From a virus, in the IMG/VR virus record IMGVR_UViG_3300049255_000608, positions 1-48,271 of that record: a stretch of DNA of 48,271 nucleotides. One strand, written 5' to 3'. Of the stretch, positions 10,436-44,424 are shown in pieces; the stretch's first letter is position 1, and each line of letters opens with the position of its first letter. The notes under the pieces are model-generated. The model was not told the DNA's origin. It was given only the letters and a program-made list of their open reading frames with translations, and ran no database searches. Made by a program: the position numbers and the translations under genes.

Positions 10436-10771
10436 CTACCGCTTGAATTGGAATTGCTGGTTGGCTTTCGTGGCCTGAATCTCCTGCTCGACACACGCCT
10501 GCAGGATTTCGAAGCTTTCCCCGACGGCGCGGCCGACCTGGTCGCAATGGTTCTTCATCGCGGTGGGCAGGCCGTCCCATTTCGGCTTCAGCTTGTCATA
10601 CGCTGCCTGTTCCTCCTGCAGGCAGGCTTGTCGGATCTCTTCCGAGCCACCGACCGCGTCGCCCACCTGCTTGCAATGGCCCTCTACGTCGTAGTTGGGC
10701 ATTTCGGCGCGCGCGCTGGAAGCGCCCGCCACGGCCATCGCCGCGATAACCATTGCTGCCGCGTACTTCAT
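10436..10771 (-). CDS. Small exported protein with two Cys-x16-Cys repeats (moron-like)
   Basis: This is a 111-residue protein with a Sec signal peptide (MKYAAAMVIAAMAVAGASSA, likely cut after ARA at residue 22). The mature part has two internally similar units: HCKQVGDAVGGSEEIRQAC (C33, C50) and HCDQVGRAVGESFEILQAC (C76, C93). Each pairs cysteines 17 apart and is probably a disulfide-stapled helical hairpin in the periplasm. The gene opposes the rightward early operon and has its own GGGAG-type ribosome binding site upstream. That is the pattern of a moron expressed from the prophage. Function unknown; envelope modification of the lysogen is inference. Confidence 0.75.
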   Translation of the reverse strand: MKYAAAMVIAAMAVAGASSARAEMPNYDVEGHCKQVGDAVGGSEEIRQACLQEEQAAYDKLKPKWDGLPTAMKNHCDQVGRAVGESFEILQACVEQEIQATKANQQFQFKR

Positions 10772-11513: not shown

Positions 11514-12142
11514 TGGACGGCCAGAAGCGGAACACCGTCGCGTCGGGCCTAAAACGCAACGACCATGACTGGTACACAGAGCCGCCGTTCGCCGTGCACG
11601 ACCTGTTCGATGCCGAGACATTCCAGGGCGGTATCTGGGATCCATGCTGCGGCCGCGGCACGATCCCCTATGTCTGCGGGCAGCGCGACTACCCCGTCGT
11701 CGGCACCGACCTGGTGCAACGCGCGCCGGGCTTCCATCGCTTCAACTTCCTGGATTATCCCCGCGCGCCCCATGGCATGCCGAACATCGTCTGCAATCCG
11801 CCGTTCCTGATCATCGATGATTGGATGCGGCACGTCGCGCGCCTGCTGATCCATAAGGCGGCGATCTTCGCGCCGATCACACTGCTGAACGGCGGTGCCC
11901 ATTCGCGGCTGCTGCGGTCGGTTCCGTTCGCCTGTTGCTGGGCCTTCACCTATCGCGTGCCGTGCCCACCCGGGGAGAAGGCGCCCAAGCTGGAAGAGTG
12001 GACGCGTGACACCATCAAGGGGACCACCGGCAACTTCGGCTGGTTCATCCTCGATACGGGCTTCGCCGGCAGACCTCATGTTGATTTCCTGCCCGTCCCG
12101 CCGGCGGACAGCGATCAGGCCGCCATCCCGGGCCTGACATGA
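11513..12142 (+). CDS. Class I SAM-dependent DNA methyltransferase (adenine type)
   Basis: This 209-residue protein has the SAM-binding motif IWDPCCGRGTI (residues 41-51), an acidic loop residue in VVGTDLV (about 62-68) and the catalytic NPPF motif at 95-98. These are the two hallmarks of amino-methyltransferases acting on adenine. The N-terminus (HDWYTEPPFAVHDLF) resembles phage adenine methylases. No matching restriction nuclease is nearby, so it is a solitary methylase, plausibly protecting or marking phage DNA. Recognition site unknown. Confidence 0.8.
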   Translation: MDGQKRNTVASGLKRNDHDWYTEPPFAVHDLFDAETFQGGIWDPCCGRGTIPYVCGQRDYPVVGTDLVQRAPGFHRFNFLDYPRAPHGMPNIVCNPPFLIIDDWMRHVARLLIHKAAIFAPITLLNGGAHSRLLRSVPFACCWAFTYRVPCPPGEKAPKLEEWTRDTIKGTTGNFGWFILDTGFAGRPHVDFLPVPPADSDQAAIPGLT

Positions 12143-12795
12143 CGCACACACGGGGGAACGCCATGCAGCTCGCGATCACGCTCAACATAGAGATTCCGGA
12201 ACCGTTGCAAACGCTGCTCCAGGCCTTCCTGGGCACGCTGGCCGCAACGGCTCCGGCACGATCTTCGCCGGAGGATGTTCCGGCGGAGCGGCCCATGGTT
12301 GGGCCGGCGGCACCTGCCGCGCACTTGGACGTTTCCTCCCTTAACTCGCCGGCGGCGGCGTCCCCGCCGCCGGCACTTTCTTCGAAGTCCCATGGGGGGG
12401 GGGGCCGCGCGCTGTATCGAACGCAGGAACGCATCGATTTCCTGAAGCTGGCGTGGCCTCGCGGCGATGGTGCGGCCGATGTGCTCGCGACCATGAACAA
12501 GCTGCCGGGGCCCGCTGTGGCCGACGAACGCACGGTGCTGCGCATGGTGGCATGGTTGAAGCTGCAGCGGTCGCCAGAAGCCCTGCGCAGGATGCAGATG
12601 GCGAAGGTCAGGGCTATGCGCGACGCGAAAGTGAAGGGCGAGCCCGTACCCGCCAGTCACGACGCCATTCTGCGATGGGGCGCCGAGCACGGATGCCACC
12701 AGGATCAGCTCGACCTGGCCGCAATGAACGCACGCCGGCGGGAGCTGGGGCTGCCGCCCTTTGTCCCCTCCGACGCGCGGCGGCGCGCGGCCTGA
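12139..12795 (+). CDS. Hypothetical protein with GcrA-like helical motif and G11 tract
   Basis: This protein is 218 residues. Residues about 30-80 are a low-complexity Ala/Pro/Ser linker. The C-terminal half (RTQERIDFLKLAWPRGDGAA, then VLRMVAWLKLQRSPEALRRM, then HDAILRWGAEHG) is helical and looks DNA-binding, with a spacing reminiscent of GcrA-type HTH proteins. An ATG at 12163 with GGGGGA upstream is an alternative start; 12139 overlaps the methylase stop. A run of eleven G residues at 12394-12404 encodes four glycines in the linker, and a one-base slip there would cut off the C-terminal domain. Confidence 0.6.
   Translation: MTHTRGNAMQLAITLNIEIPEPLQTLLQAFLGTLAATAPARSSPEDVPAERPMVGPAAPAAHLDVSSLNSPAAASPPPALSSKSHGGGGRALYRTQERIDFLKLAWPRGDGAADVLATMNKLPGPAVADERTVLRMVAWLKLQRSPEALRRMQMAKVRAMRDAKVKGEPVPASHDAILRWGAEHGCHQDQLDLAAMNARRRELGLPPFVPSDARRRAA
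12394..12404 (+). repeat. Homopolymer tract of eleven G
   Basis: An uninterrupted run of 11 G lies inside the preceding gene between the linker and the helical C-terminal domain. As sequenced the frame is intact. It is either a slippage-prone switch or a place where sequencing error is likely. Confidence 0.9.
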
Positions 12796-12808
12796 TCTGA
12801 TCGTCGGT

Positions 12809-13825
12809 ATGCCCCGTTTCACGCAGGAGGATCTCGATGCCATCCGGATCCGGGTGCCGATCGCCGGCGTGATTGGGCGCCGCGTGCCACTCGCGCGCGC
12901 TGGGCGCCAATTGAGCGGGTGCTGTCCATTCCATCTCGAACGCAAGCCCAGCTTCTATGTCTATTCCGACCACTATCATTGTTTCGGATGCGGCGCGCAT
13001 GGCGACGTCATCCGGTTCGCGATGGACGTCGATGGCCTCAGCTTCGTTGACGCCGTCGAACGGCTCGCATCTGACGGTGGCGTAACGGCAACACCAGTGT
13101 CCGCGCAAGAACGACAGATCGCCGGGCGGGCGCGGGCGGACGATGATGCGGCGGCCGAGCGTTATCGCCGCTATGCCGCCGCGATCTGGCTGGCAGCGAC
13201 ACCATCGATCCTTGGCACGCCGGTGGAACGGTACCTCGCGGGGCGCTGCATCGATCTGGCGTGCCTGGCGCGGGTGCCGAGTGCCTTGCGGTTCCATCCT
13301 GGGCTGCCGCACCGCCCGAGCGGCCGCACAATGCCGGCAATGGTCGCCGCGATCCATGGCGCCGACGGCAAGCACCTGTCCACGCATCGCACCTGGTTGG
13401 AACCTGTCGGCCGCGATTGGATCAAGGCGCGGGTGCCCAATGCGAAGCTGACGGTGGGCATGTATCCTGGTGGCAGCATCCGCCTCGCCCGTGGCCCGTC
13501 GGGGAAGTCGCTGAGGGATGCGCCGGCGGACGATACGGTGATCATCGGCGAGGGCATTGAAACCTGCCTGACGATCGCTGCGGCCTGTCCGGAGCTGCGG
13601 GTGATCGCCGCCGTCTCGCAGGGCAATCTTGGTGGCGTATGGCTGCCGGACCAGCTCCGCAACGTGATCCTCGCCAGCGACAATGACGTCAAGCCGGTCG
13701 CGCGCGAACGGTTCCAGCGGATCGTGGAGCAGCACATGGATGCGGGGCGGAATGTGCGCGTCGTGCGTAGCCCGCTGGGTAATGATTTCAACGATGCCGC
13801 GCTGGCATGGAAACGTGCCGCATGA
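12809..13825 (+). CDS. DNA primase (CHC2 zinc finger + Toprim)
   Basis: This 338-residue primase has an N-terminal CHC2 zinc finger (C39-P-F-H42, then C58 and C61 in YHCFGCGAHGDV). A linker and a Toprim domain follow, with DTVIIGEGIETCLTIAA supplying the conserved Glu and VILASDNDVKP supplying the Asp pair. The start at 12809 (MPRFTQ) is chosen over an upstream frame extension because the zinc-finger N-terminus normally begins this way. It overlaps the ATPase gene by four bases (ATGA). Together they would prime and unwind phage DNA at the origin. Confidence 0.93.
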   Translation: MPRFTQEDLDAIRIRVPIAGVIGRRVPLARAGRQLSGCCPFHLERKPSFYVYSDHYHCFGCGAHGDVIRFAMDVDGLSFVDAVERLASDGGVTATPVSAQERQIAGRARADDDAAAERYRRYAAAIWLAATPSILGTPVERYLAGRCIDLACLARVPSALRFHPGLPHRPSGRTMPAMVAAIHGADGKHLSTHRTWLEPVGRDWIKARVPNAKLTVGMYPGGSIRLARGPSGKSLRDAPADDTVIIGEGIETCLTIAAACPELRVIAAVSQGNLGGVWLPDQLRNVILASDNDVKPVARERFQRIVEQHMDAGRNVRVVRSPLGNDFNDAALAWKRAA

Positions 13826-26539: not shown

Positions 26540-26838
26540 TGGCACGCAACGACCTGCTCTGCGGCGCGGCGCCTCTGGCGCTGGGCGCGACGCCGCACCG
26601 TGCCCCGGACGTCGCGGATTTCTGCATCACCGGCCGGTCCTGGGGCGGTGACATGAAGCTGCAGGTGGGCGGTCACGTGCTGCGCGTGCCCTTGGTGCCG
26701 GGTAGTAGCCCGGCGCAGACCGCTGCAGCCGTTGTGCGGGCCGCCAGCGCGCATCCTGCCCTGCGTGGCGAACTGAAGGTGGATGCCGTGGGCCAGGCGA
26801 TCGTGCGGCTGTCGCTGCGTCAGGTAGCTACGCAATGA
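26539..26838 (+). CDS. Hypothetical head-tail region protein
   Basis: This 99-residue protein contains MKLQVGGHVLRVPLVPGSSP, followed by AQTAAAVVRAASAHPALRGE. The pattern vGG-x-v-x-V-P-G-s-xAQ-aaavv-Aa resembles a small domain seen in phage tail sheath proteins. It is joined to both neighbours by short overlaps. A connector or completion role is likely from position only. Confidence 0.5.
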   Translation: MARNDLLCGAAPLALGATPHRAPDVADFCITGRSWGGDMKLQVGGHVLRVPLVPGSSPAQTAAAVVRAASAHPALRGELKVDAVGQAIVRLSLRQVATQ

Positions 26839-27740
26839 CCGCCGCGCGCACCATGCTGTGCATCGCCGCCGTCAACGCGCTGGGCGCCGCGGCGGCGCTC
26901 GCCGAAACCGATCCGGACTTCGCCCCCCTACCCGGCGCACAGGTGTTTGTGGGGCAGACCTGGCCCTCGCAATCGCCAACCCCGGGCGCGGCGCCGATGC
27001 CCAACCAGCTGCTGGTGTATGGCTGGGAGGAAGACAGCGACAGCCTCTCCGGTGAGTCCACATCGCCACAGTTCAAGACGACCACCATGCTGGTTGTGGA
27101 AGCCCGCGTCGAAACCCGCAGCCCGGCGGCGCAAGCCACGCTGCCCAGCGTCCCATCGTCCGATGCCATCGCGGCAACCGTCGATGCCCGGCTCGCGGCG
27201 CTGACCTATGCCGTAAAGAACGCGCTGCTGTGCGGCCTGGCAACCCAGGCCACCGCGGTCAACGGTGGTCAGCCCTTGGTGCAGGGCTTCGGCAAGCTGC
27301 AGAGCAAGGCGATGCTGGACGGCGAGGGTCAGCGCATCGCCGGCAACGATGCCGTGACTATCGACGTGATCTATGGCGAAACGTTCAATTTCGCGACTGT
27401 CACAGCCACGCCGGCACTGACCGAAGTCTCGACCACGATCGGCGCGCAGGCTGTCGCCAAGGCAAACAACGGCAACCAAGGCAACGGCACGATCTCGGCA
27501 GTCGCCGTCGGCGGCGGCGTACAGGTTGGCACTTACGCCGTGGCCTTCACCTCGGCCACGTCCTTCACCGTCACCAACCCCGACAGCACGTCGGCCGGAG
27601 CCGGAACGGTCGGCACTCAATTTGCCGGCGGCGGCCTGACCTTCACAATCACCGTCGGCTCACAGGCCTACGTCGCCGGCGACGGCTACGGAATCGCCGT
27701 GTGGGCGGCGGCCGAAACCCAGCTCAACCTTTCAGAGTAG
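26835..27740 (+). CDS. Tail terminator-like protein with fused decoration-type domain
   Basis: This 301-residue protein has an N-terminal half (1-185) of tail-terminator type: LLVYGWEEDSD, then FKTTTMLVVEARVETRSPAA, a helix around LAALTYAVKNALLC, and DAVTIDVIYGETFNF. Residues about 211-290 form a separate beta domain (NNGNQGNGTISAVAV, VGTYAVAFTSATSFTVTNPD, GGGLTFTITVG, GDGYGIAV). Its landmarks match the second inserted domain of the head decoration protein. It precedes the sheath gene, as expected for the protein capping the tail tube and sheath. Confidence 0.65.
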   Translation: MTAARTMLCIAAVNALGAAAALAETDPDFAPLPGAQVFVGQTWPSQSPTPGAAPMPNQLLVYGWEEDSDSLSGESTSPQFKTTTMLVVEARVETRSPAAQATLPSVPSSDAIAATVDARLAALTYAVKNALLCGLATQATAVNGGQPLVQGFGKLQSKAMLDGEGQRIAGNDAVTIDVIYGETFNFATVTATPALTEVSTTIGAQAVAKANNGNQGNGTISAVAVGGGVQVGTYAVAFTSATSFTVTNPDSTSAGAGTVGTQFAGGGLTFTITVGSQAYVAGDGYGIAVWAAAETQLNLSE

Positions 27741-36338: not shown

Positions 36339-37526
36339 ATGTCATCATTCTGGCGTCCCGCGGTCGCTCAGACGATCGCGCAGATCAGGGCCGCGTTCGC
36401 CGCCCTGATCCCTGGGGCGGATGCTGCCCCGCGGCGGTCCAACCTGGGCGTCGCGTCAATCACGATCGCCACCGCGATCGATGGCGAATATGCCTACCTG
36501 GACTGGCAGATCGATAATGCCCTGATGCCGGATACGGCGATCGCGCCGTACTCGAACCGGTGGGGTTCACTAAAGGGCGCGAACCCGAAAGGGCCAAACC
36601 CGGCCACTGGCGGAGCAAACTTCGCGGACTGCCTGCCGAATATTCCGATCGATTCGGGCACGCAGATGCAGCTCCAGCCCAACATCGTGTTCGCTACGAC
36701 GGCGGCGGCCAATACTGGAACTGGCGGCACGGTCAGCAACGTTCCGATCAAGGCCGTGCTGCCGGCGGTGGACAGTGATGGCACGCAGTGGAACTGTGCC
36801 GCTGGTGCCGCGCTGACGCTGGTGCAGGGGATCCCTGGCATCAACGGCAATGGCATCACGGTCGCGGCCGACATCACCAACGGCACCGCGCCCGAAACGA
36901 ATGAGGCGTTCGTCGCGCGCTACATGCAATTGTTCCGGCAGCCGCCGCAGGGCGGGGACGCCTTCGATTACATCGAATGGGCGCTCGAGGTGCCGGGCGT
37001 CACGCGTGCCTGGTGCGCGCCACTGTGGATGGGGCCGGGGACCATTGCCGTCTACACGATGTTCGACGTGGCGAACGCCACCGAAAACGGCGTGCCACAG
37101 GGAACCAACGGCGTCGCGAGCGGAGAGACGCGGGCGACGCCGGCGACGGAGGATCTGCTGACCGTCGCGAACTGGATCTTCGTCGGGCGATATGCGGTGA
37201 AGGGCGCGTGCCGGCCGGCCACGGCGCTGGTGTATTCGATCGCACCGACCTTGGTGCCAACGAACTTCACGTTGAAATACGTGCCGTCTGCCCAGCAGAG
37301 CGCGGTGGAGGCGGCGATCGGCGCCGTGCTGCTGCAGGAAGGGGCGGCAGCGGTGCTGAACACGACCGGCCCGCTGGTGACCGGCGGCACGGTCGAGCTG
37401 GCTGATATCCAGTCCGCCGTCCGCGCAGTGCCGCAATGCTCTGGCGCGCTGGTGTTGAGCCCGACCGATAACATCGCGACCTCGATCGGGCAGCTACCGA
37501 CCGTGGGCAGCTGCACGTTCGACTGA
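36339..37526 (+). CDS. Baseplate J-like protein (Mu gp47-like)
   Basis: This 395-residue protein includes GTQMQLQPNIVFATTAAANT, AAGAALTLVQGIPGINGNGI, ETNEAFVARYMQLFRQPPQG and DYIEWALEVPGVTRAWCAPL. This succession is diagnostic of the gpJ/gp47 baseplate wedge family. It is joined to the gp48-like gene by a one-base TGATG junction. Confidence 0.93.
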   Translation: MSSFWRPAVAQTIAQIRAAFAALIPGADAAPRRSNLGVASITIATAIDGEYAYLDWQIDNALMPDTAIAPYSNRWGSLKGANPKGPNPATGGANFADCLPNIPIDSGTQMQLQPNIVFATTAAANTGTGGTVSNVPIKAVLPAVDSDGTQWNCAAGAALTLVQGIPGINGNGITVAADITNGTAPETNEAFVARYMQLFRQPPQGGDAFDYIEWALEVPGVTRAWCAPLWMGPGTIAVYTMFDVANATENGVPQGTNGVASGETRATPATEDLLTVANWIFVGRYAVKGACRPATALVYSIAPTLVPTNFTLKYVPSAQQSAVEAAIGAVLLQEGAAAVLNTTGPLVTGGTVELADIQSAVRAVPQCSGALVLSPTDNIATSIGQLPTVGSCTFD

Positions 37527-38137
37527 TGCAGCCGACGAACTATGCGGGCCTGTCGCAGGCCGACTTCCAGGACGTGATGGCAGAGAAGCTGCCACCGCGC
37601 GGGCTGGCGTGGCCGCGGCTGGTGGGCGGCGTGTTCCAGGGCTTCATGCGCGCGGTTGGCAACGTTCTGGCGGCGTTTCATGCGCGGGCCGCGCAGCTGA
37701 CCGAGGTGGAGGCCTTCCCGCCGACGTCGGTCGAGCTGCTGCCGGACTGGGAGAGAGTGCTGGAGCTACCGGATCCATGCCTTGGTGCGAACCCGGTGAC
37801 CGCGGCCCGGCAGGCCGCGGTGGCGGCGCGGCTGGCCGCCACGGGCGGGCAGTCGATCCCGTACTTCCAGGAACTGGCGAACAACCTCGGCGGCTCCGTT
37901 TCGACAACCGAATACGCACCCTGGCGTTGGGGTGTGGATGTGTGGGGCACGCCCTGGCGCAACGCGTCCTGGGCCTATGTGTGGCTGGTGACCTTGCAGA
38001 ACCAGGCTGCGTTCGATTTTGAGTGGGGCGTGTCGTCATGGGGTGAGCCGTACTGGCAGATCGCAAACGGCCCAATCCAGTGCGAGATCCAGCGCCTTGC
38101 GCCGGGGCACACCCAAGTGAATTTCACGGACTTCTGA
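37526..38137 (+). CDS. Baseplate protein (Mu gp48-like)
   Basis: This 203-residue protein carries FQDVMAEKLPPRGLAWPRLV, LTEVEAFPPTSVELLPDWER, VLELPDPCLG and RQAAVAARLAATGGQSIPYF, the standard order of the Mu gp48 (DUF2313) family. The C-terminus is Trp-rich. It closes the baseplate cluster before the fibre genes. Confidence 0.9.
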   Translation: MQPTNYAGLSQADFQDVMAEKLPPRGLAWPRLVGGVFQGFMRAVGNVLAAFHARAAQLTEVEAFPPTSVELLPDWERVLELPDPCLGANPVTAARQAAVAARLAATGGQSIPYFQELANNLGGSVSTTEYAPWRWGVDVWGTPWRNASWAYVWLVTLQNQAAFDFEWGVSSWGEPYWQIANGPIQCEIQRLAPGHTQVNFTDF

Positions 38138-40138: not shown

Positions 40139-40558
40139 ATGCGCTGGATTTGTTTGATGGCAGCACTGCTGCTGCCCATTGCCACGGCGCGCGCACAAAC
40201 CGCGACTGACGCGCAGGGACGAACGATCAATTCCGGAAGCGACGCTAGTAGCTCGCCGCCTTCTCTGAGTGGATTGAACCTGCTCGGCACGCTCTTCGCC
40301 AACGCTGCGCGGGTCGGCTACCTGGTGCAGGTGCAGGATACCGCAACGGATTGCGCGCCGGCGTCGGGGGTCGGCATCAACGGGATTGTCGTGGCCTTCG
40401 ATGACGGCAACGGCAACAACCTTCTGATCGGGACGTTGGGATTCGCGCTCACTCAGGGTGGCCAGGGCGGCTCCTTCGACATGGCGGGGATGCCGCATGC
40501 GGGGCGGATAAGGGTCTATGGGAAATCGGGGTGTCAGGTGGCACTGCATCAATGGTAA
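40139..40558 (+). CDS. Exported protein with Sec signal peptide
   Basis: This is a 139-residue protein with a clear signal peptide (MRWICLMAALLLPIATARAQ, cut near ARA-Q). The mature part starts TATDAQGRTINSGS, has two cysteines (in TDCAPAS and SGCQVA) and is beta-rich. The DxxGRT start resembles the beginning of the exported protein at 41744. It is the first of three consecutive genes with export signals directly after the tail fibre genes. Role unknown. Confidence 0.65.
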   Translation: MRWICLMAALLLPIATARAQTATDAQGRTINSGSDASSSPPSLSGLNLLGTLFANAARVGYLVQVQDTATDCAPASGVGINGIVVAFDDGNGNNLLIGTLGFALTQGGQGGSFDMAGMPHAGRIRVYGKSGCQVALHQW

Positions 40559-41742
40559 TGCGCAAGCTTGATCGGCTGACCGGTGGCGTGATGCGCCGGC
40601 TCGGCCTGGCGCTCGCGATATTCGCGGCGCAGCTTGTCGTTCTGGCTCCGCACATCTATGCGGCCGTAACGCAGCCGGCACAGAATGTCGCGCTGCAGAG
40701 CCCGGCGATCTTCGGCCCCGGCGTCGACGGCAACGTCACAATCAGCAGCGGAACTGTCGTGATCTCTCGCGAGATGGACTACGCCAGCCTGACGCTGAGT
40801 GGGTCCGGCAACATCTACGCGGCGGGTTATCCGATTCGTGTCCAAAATGTCCTGGACACGTCGGGTGCCACGTCGTCCTGTCCGATCAACCTGAACGGGG
40901 GCAACGCGGGCGCCGCATCTGGTGCGACCGGTGGCGGGGGTGGCGGCAATCCGAACATCGGCACGCTTGCCATCAACCAAACACTCGCCGCCGTCGCCGC
41001 GACCGGCACGACGGGAGCGGGAACGGCCAATGCCCAATACACCCTCAGAGCCACGTTCTCGAATGGCGGCATCGGCGGCGTCGGGGGGGTATCTGGCACC
41101 AGCAATGCCGGCGGTTCACCAGTCGCCAACAATTCCTCTGCGCTGCTTCAGTATCTGTTTCCGTTATGGAACGGCAGCGCGATGCCCTATGTGTTGGGCA
41201 ACAACCTAAACTATCCCGTGTTCGCGCAGGGTGGCCCCGGTGTGGCGGGCGGTTCCGGCGGCGGGGACGGCACCAATGCCGGCGGCGGTGGCGGGGGACC
41301 TGGCGGAAGTTCCTCCACGCTGTATGTGGCCGCTTCCATTTGGAAGCGTAATGGCGGCAGCCAAAACGTCTATTGTGCCTACGGGGGCAATGGTGGCCTG
41401 GGAGGCAATGGCGCAGCCGGCAACGCTGGTGGCGGCGGTGGTGGCGGCGGCGGCGGCGGCGGTTTCTTTTACGGGCTATTCGGACAACTCGTCGGAGGAA
41501 CGGTTACGAACGCCATCAATGTCTCCGGTGGAAATGGCGGCATGGGCGGCAACGGCAGTGGCACCGGGAAGGGTGGTAACGGAGGCCAGGGTGGATACGG
41601 CGGAAACTGGCAGGCGGTTGTGCTTTCACCGCCCTCTTTCACCTACGGATCGTTCGACGCGACGCCAACCAGCGGATCGACCACGTCAACGTCGACCGGC
41701 GCTGTAGGTGGCGCCGGCGCCCAAGTCTTGGGGGGTTTGTAA
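40558..41742 (+). CDS. Polyglycine-rich adhesin-like protein with N-terminal signal segment
   Basis: This 394-residue protein starts at an ATG overlapping the preceding stop. A basic then hydrophobic segment (RRLGLALAIFAAQLVVLAPH, residues 13-32) is a probable signal peptide or anchor. The body has repeated Gly-rich tracts at about 113-130, 170-186, 225-250, 276-302 (twelve Gly in a row at 291-302) and 324-350, separated by short variable segments. That layout resembles the polyglycine-sandwich tips of gp38-type T-even adhesins. Those are not exported, so the signal is odd. Receptor-binding tip or lysogen surface protein are the alternatives. Confidence 0.6.
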   Translation: MRKLDRLTGGVMRRLGLALAIFAAQLVVLAPHIYAAVTQPAQNVALQSPAIFGPGVDGNVTISSGTVVISREMDYASLTLSGSGNIYAAGYPIRVQNVLDTSGATSSCPINLNGGNAGAASGATGGGGGGNPNIGTLAINQTLAAVAATGTTGAGTANAQYTLRATFSNGGIGGVGGVSGTSNAGGSPVANNSSALLQYLFPLWNGSAMPYVLGNNLNYPVFAQGGPGVAGGSGGGDGTNAGGGGGGPGGSSSTLYVAASIWKRNGGSQNVYCAYGGNGGLGGNGAAGNAGGGGGGGGGGGGFFYGLFGQLVGGTVTNAINVSGGNGGMGGNGSGTGKGGNGGQGGYGGNWQAVVLSPPSFTYGSFDATPTSGSTTSTSTGAVGGAGAQVLGGL

Positions 41743-41743
41743 C

Positions 41744-42211
41744 ATGAAGCTGCTGCGCATCGCCCTCGTCGCCGCCTTGTTGGCTTCCTCCGTCGCCCAG
41801 GCGCAGACGCTGACCGATAACTTCGGTCGGACCGTCACCTTCACCGGCAACGCTTATGTTGTCACCGATCCTCGCGATCCCAGCGTGGGTATCAGTGGCA
41901 GCGCATCATCGCAGGCTGCCGCGATGTATGTCGTAAACTCTCTGCGGCCAGCTTGGTATGTGCCGACGCCTGCGCCAAACCCGACAGTGATCACCTCGAT
42001 CGCGTTCCTCGATCGCTTCACCCCCGCCGAGCAGGCGGCAGTGCAGCAAGCCGCTGCCAGTGCGCCATCCACGATCGGGGTCGGCCTGACGACCGGTCTC
42101 GCCACCGGAACGATCGATTTGACCGGCCCCGCTCTGAAAGCCTGGATGGATGCGTTGGTCACGGCCGGCGCGATCACCTCGGCCCGAGAGAGCACCATCC
42201 TCACCCCCTGA
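41744..42211 (+). CDS. Exported protein with Sec signal peptide and tail-associated C-terminus
   Basis: This 155-residue protein has a strong signal peptide (MKLLRIALVAALLASSVAQA). The mature region begins QTLTDNFGRTVTFTGNAYVV. The C-terminal segment (FLDRFTPAEQAAVQQAAASA, then IDLTGPALKAWMDALVTAGA, ITSARESTILTP) is of a type seen at the end of phage fibre-region proteins. A virion-type domain behind a Sec signal is unusual. The gene begins one base after the polyglycine gene. Confidence 0.65.
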   Translation: MKLLRIALVAALLASSVAQAQTLTDNFGRTVTFTGNAYVVTDPRDPSVGISGSASSQAAAMYVVNSLRPAWYVPTPAPNPTVITSIAFLDRFTPAEQAAVQQAAASAPSTIGVGLTTGLATGTIDLTGPALKAWMDALVTAGAITSARESTILTP

Positions 42212-42264: not shown

Positions 42265-42630
42265 ATGACGTCTGAGCGCCACGAAGGTCGATCGCGCTCA
42301 TGCGAGAGCTGCGCCAACTTCAAGGAGCCGCGAACCACATTGGGTTCGTTCCTTCACGGAGCAGCCCAACTGCTCGTGCCGAGCGTCGCCGGCGCCATCA
42401 TCACCGCGATATGGCTGCTTTCGGGCCTCACTGAACGCATCAATTATATCGATGACACACTGAAGGAGACCAAAGGCAGCATCACTACGATGCGCGGAGA
42501 ACTGCTCGAGTTGTCTCGTCTGGGCGAGAGATTGGAAACGCGCCTCGATGACCAGGTCCCGCAGCCGCAGGCGCGCCGACCATCGGGATCGCGTCAGCCG
42601 ATGTCCGTGCCGAACAATGAAGGTGGCTGA
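42265..42630 (+). CDS. Single-span membrane protein of the lysis cassette
   Basis: This 121-residue protein has one transmembrane segment at about residues 34-54 (AQLLVPSVAGAIITAIWLLS), then a coiled-coil-like stretch (ERINYIDDTLKETKGSITTM) and a Pro/Gln-rich tail. The N-terminus has a CESC motif. It precedes the endolysin, so a holin, pinholin or spanin-related role is possible; topology alone does not decide between them. Confidence 0.55.
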   Translation: MTSERHEGRSRSCESCANFKEPRTTLGSFLHGAAQLLVPSVAGAIITAIWLLSGLTERINYIDDTLKETKGSITTMRGELLELSRLGERLETRLDDQVPQPQARRPSGSRQPMSVPNNEGG

Positions 42631-42631
42631 C

Positions 42632-43171
42632 ATGTCTGTTTTCGATCGATGCTTCGAAATCACCGTGGGTAATGAGGGTGGCTACAGCGACGATCCGAAT
42701 GATCGCGGCAACTGGACCAGTGGCCAGGTAGGCATCGGTGAGCTGCGCGGCACCAAATACGGCATCAGCGCGATGTCGTATCCGAACCTGGATATCCAGA
42801 ACCTCACGCTGGACCAGGCGAAGGCGATCTACGCGACGGATTACTGGGCGAAGGTCAACGGCTCGGCGCTGCCGCCGGCCGTGGCATGCCTGGTGTTTGA
42901 TGCTGGTGTGAATTCCGGGACCAAGAAGGCTGGGGAGCTGCTGCAGGTGGCCCTCGGCTTCGTTGGCAACGCTGTCGACGGTGATATCGGCGGCATGACG
43001 CTGGACGCCGTGCACAAGGCGACGACGTCGGACCTGCAGGGGTTGCTGGCGGAGTATTCTGCCCGCCGCATCGTCTACGATACGGAAACGGCACAATGGG
43101 CAAACGACGCGCTTGGCTGGTCACGCCGCGTCATTGGCCTGCCGTTCAAGGCGCTCGTGCTGCAGGCTTGA
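42632..43171 (+). CDS. Endolysin, glycoside hydrolase family 108 type
   Basis: This 179-residue lysozyme-like protein has the catalytic Glu15 in TVGNEGGYSDDPNDRGN, followed by GTKYGISAMSYPNLDIQNLT and DYWAKVNGSALPPAVACLVF. This order is diagnostic for the GH108 / secretion-activator muramidases. It has no signal peptide, so release to the cell wall needs the holin. The start at 42632 is preferred; an ATG five codons upstream is possible. Confidence 0.92.
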   Translation: MSVFDRCFEITVGNEGGYSDDPNDRGNWTSGQVGIGELRGTKYGISAMSYPNLDIQNLTLDQAKAIYATDYWAKVNGSALPPAVACLVFDAGVNSGTKKAGELLQVALGFVGNAVDGDIGGMTLDAVHKATTSDLQGLLAEYSARRIVYDTETAQWANDALGWSRRVIGLPFKALVLQA

Positions 43172-43866: not shown

Positions 43867-44424
43867 ATGCTCAATCGTCGCAGCTTTTTGCTGGGCGCCA
43901 CCGGTCTCTGCGCCGTGGTCCCGGTCGCCGACGCGTTGGCGTCTGGCGCGCTGCCAACCCTCACCTCGGCCGAGATCGTCACTCTCGCCGGAAACACCGA
44001 TACGGCGCTGCTGAACGCGGTGAAGGGTATTGCCGTGGCGGAGCCGGGCCTGATCCCCGCGGACACTGTCACCACCATCACGAACGACCTGACGATCGGC
44101 CAGGGGGCGGCTCAGACGCTGACCACAAACCTGCCCGCGGCGCAGGGTGCGACCACGGTGAAGACGATCAATGGCTACATCAACGCGGTCATGAACACGC
44201 TGGCGGCGCCGCCGATCAATGGCCTCATTCCGGCACCGTTCAATGAAGCCATCGCGGCTGTCGCGATCGCCATGCCGACCTTGGAGGGGTTTGTGGATAC
44301 CTACATCCTCGGGGCCAGCGCACCTCTGGCCACGGCTGGCGCCCGAGCCAAACTGGCGAAGCTGATGCCTATGTCGCTGGATGAAGCGAAGGCGACCCTG
44401 GCCCGCTACGCGGCTTCGCACTGA
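43867..44424 (+). CDS. Exported protein with twin-arginine (Tat) signal
   Basis: This 185-residue protein starts MLNRRSFLLGATGLCAVVPV, with the RR-x-F-L-L Tat motif and an ALA-type cleavage region near residue 25. The mature part is helical and Thr/Ala-rich (VTTITNDLTIGQGAAQTLTT, KTINGYINAVMNTLAAPPIN). The Tat route carries folded proteins, often with cofactors, which is rare for phage gene products. No enzyme family was recognised. It sits between the holin-like gene and a papain-like gene and overlaps the latter by one base. Confidence 0.65.
   Translation: MLNRRSFLLGATGLCAVVPVADALASGALPTLTSAEIVTLAGNTDTALLNAVKGIAVAEPGLIPADTVTTITNDLTIGQGAAQTLTTNLPAAQGATTVKTINGYINAVMNTLAAPPINGLIPAPFNEAIAAVAIAMPTLEGFVDTYILGASAPLATAGARAKLAKLMPMSLDEAKATLARYAASH

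Follow-up and report, generated by a model that had tools for sequence, protein, structure and literature searches.

The cytoplasm is taken to be the place where phage adhesins fold, and we know of no tailed phage that finishes its fibres outside this compartment. The known fibres, spikes and tip adhesins of the Caudoviricetes, including gp38 of the T-even phages, assemble there and carry no signal peptides. Three genes (P1 to P3) of the phage analysed here share with them the site after the baseplate J and gpI-type genes, and relatives of the cluster carry fibre repeats, the S74 chaperone and a Gly-rich domain; in contrast to the known adhesins, however, the products have predicted export signals, and P2 gives no gp38 family match. 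A signal peptide followed by phage-fibre-like parts is known from the MAT proteins of Bdellovibrio (chimeric S74 and non-S74 fibres), which are exported adhesins (PMC10769870), but these are encoded by bacterial chromosomal genes and used in predation, whereas the genes described here sit in phage tail modules. Among exported phage-encoded proteins, Llp of phage T5, working from within the periplasm, protects from superinfection, and proteins of this kind are considered to keep phage from adsorbing unproductively to fragments of lysed cells (PMC9586334). Unlike P1 to P3, Llp is a small lipoprotein without fibre parts encoded outside the late tail operon, and the Cys of an Llp- or Cor-type lipobox is absent at the cleavage sites of P1 and P3. 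Lom of phage lambda is likewise exported, and its gene is located between those of the tail spike and the tail fibre (PMC12309495), but it is an outer-membrane beta-barrel expressed in lysogens, a type of family for which P1 to P3 gave no match in Pfam or PHROG. Finally, Spackle (gp61.3) of T4 has a signal peptide and two Cys, and from the periplasm contacts a baseplate protein of the virion (PMC7650644); it differs in being a lysozyme inhibitor encoded outside the fibre region, without any match to P1 to P3.

The window, i.e. the whole analysed stretch of 48,271 nucleotides, covers positions 1 to 48,271 of IMG/VR virus record IMGVR_UViG_3300049255_000608. Large terminase, portal, head maturation protease, tape measure and baseplate hub were identified via PHROGs, and the phage has a contractile, Mu/SfV-like tail. 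Judged by baseplate J, its closest named relatives are Acetobacter and Komagataeibacter phages (34%), which are too distant for naming a host. Baseplate J (36339-37526) and a gpI-type gene (37526-38137) are followed by P5 (38154..39584, + strand), a cytoplasmic tail fibre of 476 aa without signal peptide, whose N-terminal ~76 aa form a conserved attachment part (54-55% identity of the first 76 residues with the counterparts in the related phages L015 and L016). Next comes P4 (39588..40097, +), a fibre-region protein without export signal that is DUF4376-like by a weak match under the curated cut-off (PF14301, E=0.008) and has relatives in L070, L024, L015 and L033. After a gap of 41 bases P1 begins; P1 and P2 overlap in TAATG and a single base separates P2 from P3, so that the three genes abut within the late operon just 5' of the lysis genes. 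Directly 3' of the cluster lies the endolysin gene (42632..43171, +; phrog_315 lysis, E=5e-38), and the holin position, judged from place and sequence, is taken by the small protein encoded at 42265..42630 (+), in which a coiled coil accompanies a single membrane segment and which gave no PHROG match. Further 3' of the lysis genes, the window encodes a 185 aa protein (43867-44424, +) with the Tat/Sec-like start MLNRRSFLLGATG, and phage phiKM1 has a lipoprotein-like RR protein at a similar position (L014 16636-17244).

Signal peptides were called with our own rule-based score rather than SignalP, using the charge of the n-region, the hydrophobic core and an A-X-A type cleavage site. P1 and P3 show the features of Sec signal peptides: a short, positively charged n-region comes first, then a hydrophobic core with a mean hydropathy of about 3, and the cleavage site reads A-R-A or A-Q-A. 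P2 shows these features in part. P1 (40139..40558, +; 139 aa, signal score 5.54) is predicted to be Sec-exported by the signal peptide MRWICLMAALLLPIATARA (40139..40195), which is followed by QTA. A GGAG Shine-Dalgarno sequence lies 6 nt 5' of its ATG and an in-frame stop only 12 nt upstream, which fixes the start within 12 bases. The mature part has two Cys and is predicted to form a beta-sandwich (pLDDT 65, core 70-86). We found no informative homologues of P1, no named phage that carries it and nothing useful among about 400 bacterial genomes, and the sole other copy of P1 and P2 was of identical sequence. Membership of P1 in the phrog_22789 module discussed below was rejected, as the resemblance is confined to a motif (hhalign probability 1%); the best hit of its fold search (E=0.01) is not independent, since the alignment behind the model included phrog_22789 modules.

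P2 (40558..41742, +) is a Gly-rich protein (26%) of 394 aa with two Cys in its mature part, and its start is coupled to the stop of P1. Its hydrophobic N-terminal segment LGLALAIFAAQLVVLA (40558..40662) precedes HIYA and, beyond an uncertain cleavage point at an I-Y-A site, AVT; the long h-region with one Gln inside fails the strict rule, and alternative starts exist at ATG 40591 and GTG 40531. The segment could therefore be an export signal or an uncleaved anchor. A single-sequence structure model was useless overall (pLDDT 38), with a confident helix at residues 2-38. P2 gave no match in Pfam, PHROG or PDB and no informative homologue. The gp38-type label that the original prediction had attached to it was drawn from composition and is not supported, since no Pfam match up to E=1, including PF05268, was obtained. 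P3 (41744..42211, +; 155 aa, signal score 5.61) is predicted to be Sec-exported and consists of the signal peptide MKLLRIALVAALLASSVAQA (41744..41803), followed by QTL, a linker and a C-terminal fibre-region domain (41984..42208). Other phages have this domain in small signal-less proteins encoded in their fibre or head regions; it is 54% identical to a protein of L007 (tblastn E=2e-16) and 49% to one of L045 (4e-12), both small, signal-less and adjoining fibres or tail genes, and it matches phrog_25252 (E=8.5e-7), which bears out the fibre-region type of C-terminus noticed from the DNA alone. The mature part of P3 contains no Cys; no named phage carrying P3 was found, and a search of about 400 bacterial genomes for relatives returned nothing useful. 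Because the C-terminal domain also occurs in small head-region proteins just 3' of the probable major capsid gene (L008 7947-8324, L009 2708-3085), it appears to be mobile between virion modules.

The run of two or three signals is not a chance event, because background passes are rare: shuffled window proteins passed the rule in 1.2% of trials, as did 3 of 507 genes (0.6%) located 5' of the baseplate J gene in related phages, one of these three being a true exported fibre. Codon usage lends support to the signal segments of both P2 and P3, and the P1 segment, where usage is weak, still outscores the other two forward frames. The original prediction of three abutting, signal-bearing genes behind the cytoplasmic fibres thus holds for the + strand reading frames and for the signals of P1 and P3, and in part for P2. 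Elsewhere in the window, the probable tail sheath gene is directly preceded by a gene (26835-27740, +; 301 aa) whose product begins with an Ala-rich stretch resembling a signal peptide; it failed the rule.

The arrangement of P1 to P3 recurs and is not unique to this phage. Among about 60 related phages gathered via baseplate J, the two closest (L015 and L016) share the trait, and the remaining ones mostly lack it. In L016 (baseplate J 63% identical) a fibre (11842-12987) is followed by three signal-bearing genes whose products measure 237, 122 and 369 aa. A module that ends in YGAVTGQxxTAREW (phrog_22789) is common to the 237 aa and 122 aa proteins, with additional weak tail-spike and tail-fibre matches in the former; the third has the Gly-rich domain PF21722 (E=4e-9) and no Cys. 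Both exported copies of the module hold Cys at two aligned columns, and the four signal-less copies hold none. In Sinorhizobium phage phiM5, a protein of the phrog_22789 type bears the annotation 'detected in phage particle proteome'; its gene lies directly 3' of the major capsid gene (L185 3983-4258), and a role in head decoration is likely. A search for phrog_22789 in the host family of L097, a related prophage (Paracraurococcus), gave four weak and uninformative matches. L015 (73%) has a signal-bearing fibre-repeat protein with a weak tail-fibre match at the contig end, L040 a signal on a 555 aa fibre-like protein, and L019 (40%) signals on a 974 aa fibre/spike protein (phrog_2631 tail-fibre/spike match, E=2e-11), a protein of 507 aa and a pair of small proteins. 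Small exported coiled-coil proteins with weak spanin-like matches each follow a large exported protein in L019 (12411-12722, 16258-16530).

True export should leave proteins with an oxidatively folded look, and we therefore compared Cys in fibre-family proteins with and without signals. With the fibre repeat of L040 as query, 69 viral loci yielded 62 distinct proteins with closed N-termini, 28 of which bear signals, a share (45%) that is biased by a query taken from an exported protein. A second set, obtained with a signal-less fibre and cleared of overlaps with the first, is less affected and has signals in 14 of 47 proteins (30%). Cys per 1000 residues amounted to 12.4 in mature exported versus 3.0 in signal-less proteins in the first set and to 6.8 versus 3.2 in the second, so that exported proteins are about 2-4 times richer in Cys. 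Even Cys counts among Cys-containing proteins were found in 24/27 exported versus 8/26 signal-less proteins and in 11/12 versus 11/26, respectively. Altogether, the 109 distinct fibre-family proteins, from viral contigs with a tail-fibre repeat, include 42 with signals, and even counts occur in 35/39 exported versus 19/52 signal-less proteins (p=3e-7, which is indicative as the sequences are related). Signal-bearing genes next to these fibres, a choice made independently of any motif, have even counts in all 13 Cys-containing cases, versus 17/39 for signal-less genes at the same loci. Besides, the repeat form LRGDGxC with a second Cys before it occurs eight times, always in exported proteins, and the usual form (W or Y) seven times, twice in exported proteins. 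High Cys content together with even counts is the mark of periplasmic disulfide folding, and we are confident that fibre-family proteins with signals fold oxidatively as a class. Cys parity reports the folding compartment at class level and gives no destination; by position, signal and the two Cys in each mature part, P1 and P2 would fall under this result.

Several genomic contexts tie the exported proteins to phages. Neighbours of their genes include terminase, portal, baseplate wedge protein and tail protein, and the complete circular genome MW202444, with integrase, head and tail genes, encodes in its fibre slot a signal-bearing protein of 1253 aa that is rich in fibre repeats. An exported protein of L114 (646-2295) follows the Bdellovibrio pattern of signal, fibre part and optional S74, as it carries PF13884, the S74 chaperone of endosialidase that is found on spikes and fibres and is absent from P1 to P3. 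It belongs to a run (L114 646-7251) of five signal-bearing genes plus a fibre, with one 44 aa ORF between, that includes S74-tipped and fibre-repeat proteins. In isolated phages the fibre repeat is almost absent. With high confidence, adhesin-type phage proteins of the tail region are exported. No description of exported phage tail fibres was found in the open-access literature, as far as it was covered, which agrees with the original view that the arrangement is apparently undescribed; it recurs in related phages.

Where the exported proteins go is a more tentative matter. Our preferred reading, held at less than even confidence, is that the virion is their destination and that they finish its fibres, in line with the original option of adhesin parts completed in the periplasm. 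P1 to P3 are best explained as late phage proteins that take the Sec route to the periplasm and belong to a widespread, unrecognised class in which tail-fibre-region parts have an added signal peptide. On the virion reading they would build up in the periplasm while virions assemble in the cytoplasm, meet the particles when the cell is opened by holin and endolysin, and then dock as outer or tip pieces onto fibres that already bear attachment parts, here P5. Export would in this way give access to disulfide-stabilised adhesins beyond the reach of the reducing cytoplasm. The virion is favoured because of the fibre parts, the S74 chaperone, the fibre slot in MW202444 and the phiM5 relative of the L016 module, with its annotated presence in the particle proteome. 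The reading is weakened because P1 and P2 are without informative homologues, P1 is weakly linked to the module, and P3 and the third protein of L016 are Cys-free; in addition, no virion-attachment domain is recognisable in P1 to P3, which counts against docking.

Only slightly less probable than the virion reading is that the exported proteins instead mask the receptor, i.e. bind the phage's own receptor or a surface glycan from the periplasm or after lysis and thereby prevent superinfection and adsorption to debris, like Llp of T5 but built from adhesin parts. The combination of export with adhesin-type parts is in line with this, as are the precedents of Llp, of Lom with its gene among spike and fibre genes, and of the two-Cys Spackle binding a baseplate protein. 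However, a lipobox is lacking in most members of the class, which are long proteins of the repeat, spike or Gly-rich kind with no evident route to the surface before lysis, and late expression comes late for superinfection exclusion. An action in the surroundings after lysis, as free adhesins or depolymerases that loosen capsule or biofilm and are neither virion parts nor masks, is improbable: a weak match of pectate-lyase type (PF12708, E=0.001) was obtained for the 974 aa exported protein of L019, but P1 to P3 lack an enzyme domain in Pfam and PHROG, and P1 and P3 are small.

The original prediction had also offered lysogenic conversion, in which the lysogen would produce the proteins and display them as surface adhesins. 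Early and repressor-type genes on the - strand indicate that the phage may be temperate, and the exported S74 adhesins of Bdellovibrio offer a parallel, but P1 to P3 abut in the late operon 5' of the endolysin gene and no promoter or intergenic terminator of their own was found on the + strand by a sigma-70 consensus scan, which alphaproteobacterial promoters may escape. As nothing suggests separate transcription, the lysogen-surface reading has lost ground and appears quite improbable. A better candidate for an exported protein expressed in the lysogen is a 111 aa protein encoded near the early/repressor region (10436-10771, -) with the clear signal peptide MKYAAAMVIAAMAVAGASSARA, then EMP. 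That the hydrophobic N-termini are artefacts, with real starts downstream or segments that are no export signals, is very unlikely, since the weak codon usage in the P1 signal region, the strict-rule failure of P2 and the proof of mimics given by the gene at 26835 are set against the Shine-Dalgarno sequence and near upstream stop of P1, the codon support for P2 and P3, the recurrence elsewhere and the Cys parity.

Returning to the virion as destination, a broader form of this reading, which we regard as possible but doubtful, is that in a large share of uncultured tailed phages Sec-made disulfide adhesin pieces join cytoplasm-made virions at lysis, and assembly would thus take place in two compartments. 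One survey of hypervariable proteins regarded missing signal peptides as support for a phage origin (PMC6199706). If export of tail-fibre-type proteins is routine, receptor-binding proteins in viral metagenomes would be mistaken for surface proteins of bacteria, and a periplasmic branch, open to direct test, would exist in either virion assembly or receptor masking.
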